Assembly: GCA_017939155.1 (NCBI GenBank)
Contig: JAGAZZ010000055.1
Location: 1-64,000, forward strand
Length of the DNA stretch: 64,000 nucleotides
DNA from: Alphaproteobacteria bacterium
Lineage (GTDB): Bacteria; Pseudomonadota; Alphaproteobacteria; RF32; CAG-239
Reading direction: 5' to 3'
Of this stretch, positions 63,765 through 63,978 are shown piece by piece. Both the position numbers and the translations under genes were made by a program. A model generated the notes under the pieces. It searched no databases. It worked only from the letters and a program-made list of their open reading frames with translations, and was not told the origin of the DNA. Every line of letters starts with the position of its first letter. Within the stretch, counting starts at the first letter, position 1.

Positions 63765-63978
63765 GGTCGGGGAGTTCAACAATCACCATACTGGATAATG
63801 ACTCTTCCGGTCTTTAAACCGGAGTTCTGGACATACACCGGAAGCTCCCCGACCCGAGGTGTAAAACAAATCGGTTTCCCGACACAAGTTTAAAAATTGC
63901 TTCCGGGAAATTTCCAGTATGATGGGCTGTTGAAACCCCGCGTCACCTCTGACGCTAAACAAGGACATAATGCCCTTG
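63765..63978 (+). ncRNA. Candidate pseudoknotted structured RNA, cut by or near the window edge
   Basis: Two interleaved long-range pairings form a pseudoknot. GGTCGGGGAG (63765-63774) is the perfect complement of CTCCCCGACC (63845-63854), and CATACTGGA (63787-63795) of TCCAGTATG (63913-63921), the second pairing extended by GTTCAACA against TGTTGAAAC. Further hairpins: TCCGGT/ACCGGA (63806-63823), GCGTCA-cctc-TGACGC (63940-63955) and CAAGG/CCTTG (63960-63978). Overlapping open frames on both strands have no ribosome site and lie in stems. The strand is inferred from the hairpin order. Possible identities include a transposon-associated guide-type RNA (HEARO/omega-RNA) or another large structured RNA; tmRNA and RNase P RNA hallmarks were not found. 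Confidence 0.55.

Follow-up and report, generated by a model that had tools for sequence, protein, structure and literature searches.

The question raised by this locus is what the densely paired DNA at the right edge of the window (i.e., the whole stretch of 64,000 nucleotides analysed here) encodes. An earlier note, made from the letters alone, had described there two interleaved stems and a lack of coding potential, and had named as a candidate the guide RNA of an IscB/IsrB-type element.

Pairing, strand and parts of the window element

Both perfect stems of that note are real: stem A (10 bp) pairs 63765-63774 with 63845-63854 and stem B (9 bp) pairs 63787-63795 with 63913-63921. They interleave in the order A-B-A'-B'. 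Among 1000 dinucleotide-preserving shuffles of 63765-63978, none gave an interleaved pair of at least 10 and at least 8 bp, and any perfect stem of at least 10 bp was obtained in 16. A third long-range helix, PK1 (63775-63781 with 63928-63934), is absent from the earlier note. The ORFs over the element are all short (61-62 aa), in agreement with the claimed lack of coding potential. The fold of 63755-63985 beats the shuffled sequences on both strands, by more on the minus strand (−92.0 kcal/mol, z −5.92, 0 of 200 shuffles as good) than on the plus strand (−76.3 kcal/mol, z −3.91, 1 of 200 shuffles).

The element (63765-63980) is homologous to 144 other distinct copies. Judging from these relatives, the functional strand is the minus one, i.e., the RNA is read leftward and the structure begins at about 63980. 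All the parts that follow are on this strand. The 5' end is hairpin A (63958-63980), which is variable across the family, and hairpin B (63940-63955) comes next; both are delimited from sequence and fold, and hairpin B has a counterpart in relatives that was recognised by eye. Hairpin C (63924-63939) contains in its loop the 5' strand of PK1 (63928-63934), as located by the pseudoknot tests. The 5' strand of PK2 (63913-63921), i.e., one side of stem B, is supported by the pseudoknot and shuffle tests. At the site of the hairpins D/E of relatives, the sequence of the window copy contains a different hairpin of 7 bp (TTTCCCG/CGGGAAA, 63875-63910). Stem A is the closing stem, P_b, with its 5' arm at 63845-63854 and its 3' arm at 63765-63774 (covariation and shuffle tests). 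Hairpin F (63804-63844) has a conserved internal loop GUAUGUCC / UAAAG (alignment A1, pairs counted). The loop of hairpin G (63782-63802, pairs counted) carries the 3' strand of PK2 (63787-63795), and the 3' strand of PK1 lies at 63775-63781 (pseudoknot tests). The window copy retains P_b, F, G, PK1 and PK2 (12 pairs, one of them G-U, in the pseudoknot test). A promoter-like sequence, TTAACT-17-TATTAT, is located on the minus strand at contig positions 64022-63994, its left edge (63994-64000) being in the window; it scores 9/12 in the consensus scan and is weak, since 3 such sites are found in the region for 2.4 expected by chance.

Covariation, gene neighbours and spread of the family

From the comparison of the copies, the window element is a member of a family of leader RNAs of about 200 nt, characterized by a closing stem and two long-range pseudoknot helices, the latter with almost perfect covariation from copy to copy. 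In minus-strand sense, a copy comprises, often after a promoter-like sequence, hairpins A, B and C, a short strand, a variable D/E region, the 10-nt arm GGUCGGGGAG, hairpin F, hairpin G and the arm CUCUCCGACC. After this last arm, the gut type has a U-run terminator hairpin, then a Shine-Dalgarno sequence and the ATG. Hairpins B and C constitute the 5' domain, and P_b, enclosing hairpins F and G, the 3' domain. PK1 joins the loop of C to the strand preceding the 3' arm of P_b; PK2 joins the strand after C to the loop of G.

Covariation among the homologues lends strong support to the earlier suggestion of a large functional RNA, structured and pseudoknotted. In the alignment of the 3' domain (98 copies, 27 pairs), 95.9% of the cells are paired, and this value falls to about 51% when the partners are slid by one column. 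Double changes amount to 441 vs. 146 after shuffling (0 of 500 shuffles as high). Stem A (P_b) varies mostly by G-U changes, most of the covariation of the 3' domain coming from helices F and G. It should be noted that the pairing of P_b in the P_b list is by selection, since 9 of 10 pairs were required. This list includes 109 of the 121 pattern loci; the 12 others are false (L106, L151), cut or altered before the 3' arm (L040, L056), of weaker P_b (L117) or duplicates (seven loci). Alignment A1 was made of 112 non-redundant copies minus 14 with a long hairpin F, L088, L113 and L147 having been excluded beforehand. The GUAUGUYC and UAAAG segments of the internal loop of hairpin F are nearly invariant in A1. 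The main, Xcc1 and compact types each have their own form of hairpin F (UAUAUAUUGAA in the compact one).

Both pseudoknots were also assessed without alignment, copies with less than 130 nt upstream being dropped (1 of 145). PK1, for which the criterion was lax, is present in 141 of 144 copies (82-97 of 140-144 when the 3' strands are swapped between copies), and PK2, with at least 6 bp, in 136 of 144 (17-34 of 140-144 after swapping). In a stricter test, where hairpin C was placed by its stem alone, PK1 has six Watson-Crick pairs in 40 of 42 copies, with 10 sequences (24% after swapping), and PK2 is found in 41 of 42, with 38 distinct sequences (5.6% after swapping).

The copies precede ORFs in one orientation and at a near-constant distance. 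An ORF of at least 40 aa starts at most 320 nt downstream in 136 of the 145 copies, and the chosen ORF start lies 40-71 nt after P_b in 90 of the 145. The Pfam set was restricted to 95 of the 136 ORFs (start 15-110 nt downstream, fair start signal, non-redundant). These selected ORFs are diverse, with no single function: helix-turn-helix (9), outer-membrane beta-barrel (6), autotransporter (5), glycosyltransferase (4), TraM (3), staphylococcal-type nuclease (3), AraC (2) and GGDEF (1), among others. A covarying structure is present, and a 5' leader position is found for the family. As for features of an expression platform, a terminator occurs in 60 of 92 gut-type copies and complementarity to the ribosome-binding site (RBS) in the Xcc1 type; neither is beside the window copy. 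In L012 and L010 two copies are in tandem, 0.6-1.4 kb apart, each preceding a gene; both genes of L012 encode similar small lipoproteins, as if leader and gene had been duplicated as a unit.

By DNA search, the element is found at three places in its own genome and in 18 of 57 relatives, all of the same bacterial family. An exact 26-base pattern, searched over 257 billion bases (about two chance matches expected, as an estimate), hit at least 114 stretches of bacterial genomes, plus 7 of viral contigs. Carriers among the matches listed are gut or rumen Alphaproteobacteria, Rhizobium, Agrobacterium, Shinella, Methylobacterium, Sphingomonadaceae, Rhodobacteraceae and some Acidobacteria. Annotated plasmids, including rhizobial ones, hold 294 places in 222 records, of which 184 are conjugative. 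AraC- or HTH-type regulator genes adjoin or overlap the copies in four annotated regions inspected; two further regions have likewise a transcriptional regulator, or no annotation. Phage records gave 2 matches, without annotation. The covariance model built on the 3' domain alignment (R2) detects 13 places in the own genome at E ≤0.01 (6 of them strong), 84 of 101 genomes of the window's bacterial family at E ≤0.001, 46 of 385 genomes of the class and 2 of 199 of Acidobacteriota. A copy of the gut-alphaproteobacterial type (L144) is located in a metagenome-assembled genome labelled Gastranaerophilales (Cyanobacteriota side), by misbinning or transfer.

Some genomes are very rich in copies. G978, of the window's family and 1.6 Mb in size, has 84 (L228-L311), and three other genomes have at least 42 each. 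In G978, PK1 pairs in all 81 copies with a recognisable 5' domain, and PK2 has at least 8 bp in 75 of these 81 vs. 0.4% across copies, with 76 distinct PK2 strands. An ORF follows 82 of the 84 copies, and a type-IV-pilin-like motif is found in a sense frame at most 700 nt downstream in 79 of the 84 (antisense frames: 0 of 84). This genome thus has a very large family of pilin-like genes, every gene with its own leader. A selection against crosstalk among its PK2 sequences is unsupported, cross-pairing of at least 6 bp reaching 6.3% vs. 4.7-5.6% for shuffled strands.

The own genome contains at least three hairpin-F types. Its compact variant (L168-L172 and L174) has a 3' domain of 72-73 nt with the compact hairpin F loop and precedes small genes of unknown function. 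PK1 and PK2 are found in L168, L169, L170 and L174; in L171 and L172 the contig stops before the 5' domain. In L174, a repeated stretch of about 150 nt is located between P_b and the PK2 strand; it is also present at the contig ends C30 and C38 (L171/L172), as though the variable region of several copies had received a small repeat.

Relation to sRNA-Xcc1 and rival explanations

sRNA-Xcc1 (Rfam RF02221) is described as a trans-acting integron sRNA, and the title of Chen et al. 2011 calls it trans-acting. The explanation that we consider best, and that is probably correct, takes the element for a leader RNA acting in cis, from a large superfamily that has spread horizontally and includes RF02221; the latter is its closest known RNA. 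The RF02221 model matches nothing in the window at gathering (53 bits) and nothing in 63400-64000 up to E = 10. In a sensitive scan of the rhizobial-type locus L050, its whole length aligns, beginning at the first P_b base (21.7 bits, E 0.061, 111 bases), the same scan giving mir-3155 and BM-sr0117 at E about 8. At E ≤10, 28 of 38 relatives have sub-threshold RF02221 places, the best of them with 46.7 bits (E 2.3e-7); 2 of 14 control genomes also matched at this loose limit, and none of the 38 relatives has a match over the 53-bit cut-off. R2 detects RF02221-type loci in 6 places (E 0.00012-0.0072). Across the phylum, RF02221 is present in 55 of 398 genomes at E ≤1e-4, 39 being over the cut-off. 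The 5' domain falls outside the 87-nt RF02221 model and is also present in 38 RF02221-type loci, with PK1 in 30 (3-14 swapped) and PK2 in 29 (0-4 swapped). The own genome has further sub-threshold RF02221-type copies (G000:C29:12435, C44:9491, C35:89281, C40:46431 and C32:12535; E 2.6e-5 to 0.006), additional to the R2 places; L180 lies before an autotransporter-like ORF. The integron integrase TIGR02249 has no match over the cut-off in 20 relatives, own genome included, and sub-cut-off matches in 14 of 14 controls. Rfam 15 added two covarying pairs to sRNA-Xcc1, according to PMC11701678.

In 33 RF02221-type loci (L176, L178, L191, L193 and L204 were left out), the loop of hairpin G was compared with the 72 nt downstream of the element. 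The mean helix score is 7.18 vs. 5.39 (sd 0.20) after swapping, and a score of at least 7 is reached in 22 of the 33 vs. 12% of swapped pairs. The partner often holds or abuts the Shine-Dalgarno sequence, as in CUUAUCAGGAG (L207), CUCACAGG (L183) and CACACAGAGG (L187); in a few loci the best helix sits elsewhere. Since the G loop can pair with both the PK2 strand and the RBS region, the upstream PK2 strand closely resembles the ribosome-binding region.

The trans-acting label carried by that title corresponds to the first rival, which is unlikely: the 3' domain would be freed as an RNA of about 90 nt pairing with the mRNAs of other genes, as proposed for sRNA-Xcc1. According to PMC2996969, sRNA-Xcc1 measures 88 nt by RACE and gives a single Northern band of about 100 nt, and such sizes fit a free or processed sRNA better than a long leader. 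Xylella has seven sRNA-Xcc1 homologues, five of them in a row about 380 nt apart, and homologues were found in vesicles (both from PMC12189769). No gene start is close to the window copy. However, the single orientation and near-constant spacing of the copies before ORFs argue against this rival, as does the 5' domain, which is conserved by covariation in RF02221 members too; moreover, the RBS to which the loop is complementary, above swapped controls, is the one downstream of the same copy.

A ribozyme, or an RNase cut exactly 5' of P_b, that would set the expression of the downstream gene is quite improbable. The 87-position Rfam model starts at the first base of P_b, and the mapped sRNA-Xcc1 is 88 nt long (PMC2996969), in spite of the conserved 5' half upstream of them; the two halves may thus become separated in some way. 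However, no catalytic motif was recognised, and an internal promoter would explain the 5' end equally.

The element could also be a small non-autonomous mobile repeat, located before genes by chance and without regulatory role. Up to 84 copies per genome, the spread on plasmids and the position of several copies near contig ends would suit this proposal, which is nevertheless very improbable: the copies vary everywhere but in structure, PK2 having 76 distinct sequences in the 81 G978 copies and yet pairing, and the ordered series of terminator, Shine-Dalgarno sequence and ATG argues for regulation.

The guide RNA of the earlier note (HEARO/omega type) shares with the element only its dense pseudoknotted structure and has practically no chance of being right: the window is free of Rfam matches at gathering, and 63400-64000 of HEARO matches up to E = 10, a plus-strand nuclease gene past 64000 would be on the wrong side because the RNA is on the minus strand, and the ORFs of 63299-68999, examined by eye, show no HNH/RuvC protein. 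These ORFs include a 301-aa repeat protein, a pilin-like protein, a 424-aa minus-strand ORF and a ribosomal S12-like protein. The PF14239 (RRXRR) profile has no match in this genome nor in any of 14 control genomes, and so does not discriminate. The 301-aa protein (contig 64728-65633, i.e., L004 4729-5634, plus strand) is made of repeats of about 18 residues (DGKTV..RED..GN); it has no Pfam match over the cut-off and a weak MORN-like similarity below it.

Other identities were discarded. ARAGORN finds neither tRNA nor tmRNA in the window. The other Rfam families up to E = 10 in 63400-64000 are only snR67, IMES-4 and a fragment of the OppA thermometer, far below gathering. In 37 further loci the element itself has no Rfam match at gathering (the only matches were 4 tRNAs in 20 of these loci and, in the other 17, 2 tRNAs plus an ar15 outside the element).

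A predicted switch and its comparison with known systems

For the leader RNA that we prefer, the compact fold, in which the 5' and 3' domains are locked together by the two covarying long-range helices PK1 and PK2, would be one state of a genetic switch. In the gut type, a terminator directly follows the element in 60 of 92 copies; its stem begins within the last 5 nt of P_b in 59 of those 60 (shuffled: 3%). A competing strand just upstream can pair with the 5' arm of P_b (mean helix 6.43 vs. 4.06 shuffled). The 3' end of P_b would thus double as the 5' start of an intrinsic terminator, and the upstream strand could take the 5' arm, so that the folding of P_b and termination would compete. These overlaps would define two exclusive states: (i) P_b with both pseudoknots or (ii) the upstream strand with the terminator. 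The window copy has no adjacent terminator, no CCCCGAC competitor and no hairpin D.

In the Xcc1 type, the G loop may pair either with the upstream PK2 strand or with the RBS of the gene that follows. With these two alternative partners, the PK2 strand would act as a decoy, freeing or blocking translation. The copies of the family were split by sequence pattern into gut and other (rhizobial) types, 63 and 68 copies, respectively, in the loop-RBS test and 92 and 50 in the terminator test. Loop-RBS complementarity is weak in the gut type (6.13 vs. 5.86, sd 0.10), and the other type does not show it (5.30 vs. 5.31); pairing of this kind as the mechanism of all types is rejected for both, so that no one mechanism spans the superfamily. 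A terminator is found in just 17 of 50 copies of the other type. Within the RNA, a sensing site would most likely be the internal loop of hairpin F, on grounds of sequence. The variation of hairpin F between the main, Xcc1 and compact types would suit a scaffold with exchangeable sensors.

In the window, the gene downstream of the element encodes an outer-membrane beta-barrel protein (62619-63437, minus strand; Pfam OMP_b-brl, E 1.3e-16). Its start codon lies 327 nt past P_b, on the same strand as the RNA. The homologue of this gene in G012 (30% identity over 227 aa, E 2e-26) has a copy of the leader RNA 50 nt ahead of its ATG. The window copy may act on its own outer-membrane protein gene at this distance, or as a free RNA. 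No loop-RBS complementarity of the Xcc1 type was seen in this copy.

A bolder and only tentative reading is that of a superfamily of switches with one scaffold (closing stem plus nested PK1/PK2), exchangeable sensing hairpins, a horizontal spread with accessory genes, a PK2 «barcode» proper to each copy and an RBS decoy in the Xcc1 branch, sRNA-Xcc1 being then no trans regulator but the 3' half of a switch acting in cis. In the same reading, given the amplification to 84 copies, 79 of them before pilin-like genes, surface proteins may have individually barcoded switches.

If the switch is confirmed, (i) of a widespread regulatory RNA, only a fragment of 87 nt would have been known so far, under the annotation of a virulence-linked sRNA acting in trans; (ii) the whole of about 200 nt, with its two pseudoknots and leader position, would have been overlooked in the literature searched; (iii) sRNA-Xcc1 would have a directly testable mechanism, loop vs. 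RBS or decoy; (iv) a new class of metabolite- or signal-sensing RNA would be a candidate; and (v) horizontally acquired genes would bring their own expression switch. The genome with 84 copies is in itself a natural experiment in the evolution of RNA structure. In the searched literature, the scope of which left most subscription papers outside, neither the entire element nor the pairing of the loop with the RBS was found described; a word search of the large motif surveys checked gave no mention of Xcc1.

Three known systems can be compared. HEARO/omega RNA (RF02033) is, like the element, a large pseudoknotted RNA of mobile DNA. It differs by the lack of any sequence or structure match, by the absence of a nuclease gene and by the leader position of the family. 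RF02221 has the same order P_b - hairpin F - hairpin G - P_b, i.e., a closing stem with two hairpins, and, in 29-30 of the 38 loci, PK1 and PK2 together with hairpin C upstream. It also adjoins a gene in the same orientation, symE being downstream of sRNA-Xcc1 in Xanthomonas integron cassettes, as stated in PMC12444791. The two differ in hairpin F: GUAUGUCC..UAAAG in the family vs. AAUACAACACC..GGAAAUA in RF02221. Finally, riboswitches with intrinsic terminators and RNA attenuators have in common with the family a structure in the 5' leader, a last stem overlapping the terminator and a competing upstream strand. In contrast, the genes of the family do not belong to one pathway, the predicted switch has no assigned ligand, and the RNA is distinguished from them by its two long-range pseudoknots, whose sequence is nearly unique to each copy.
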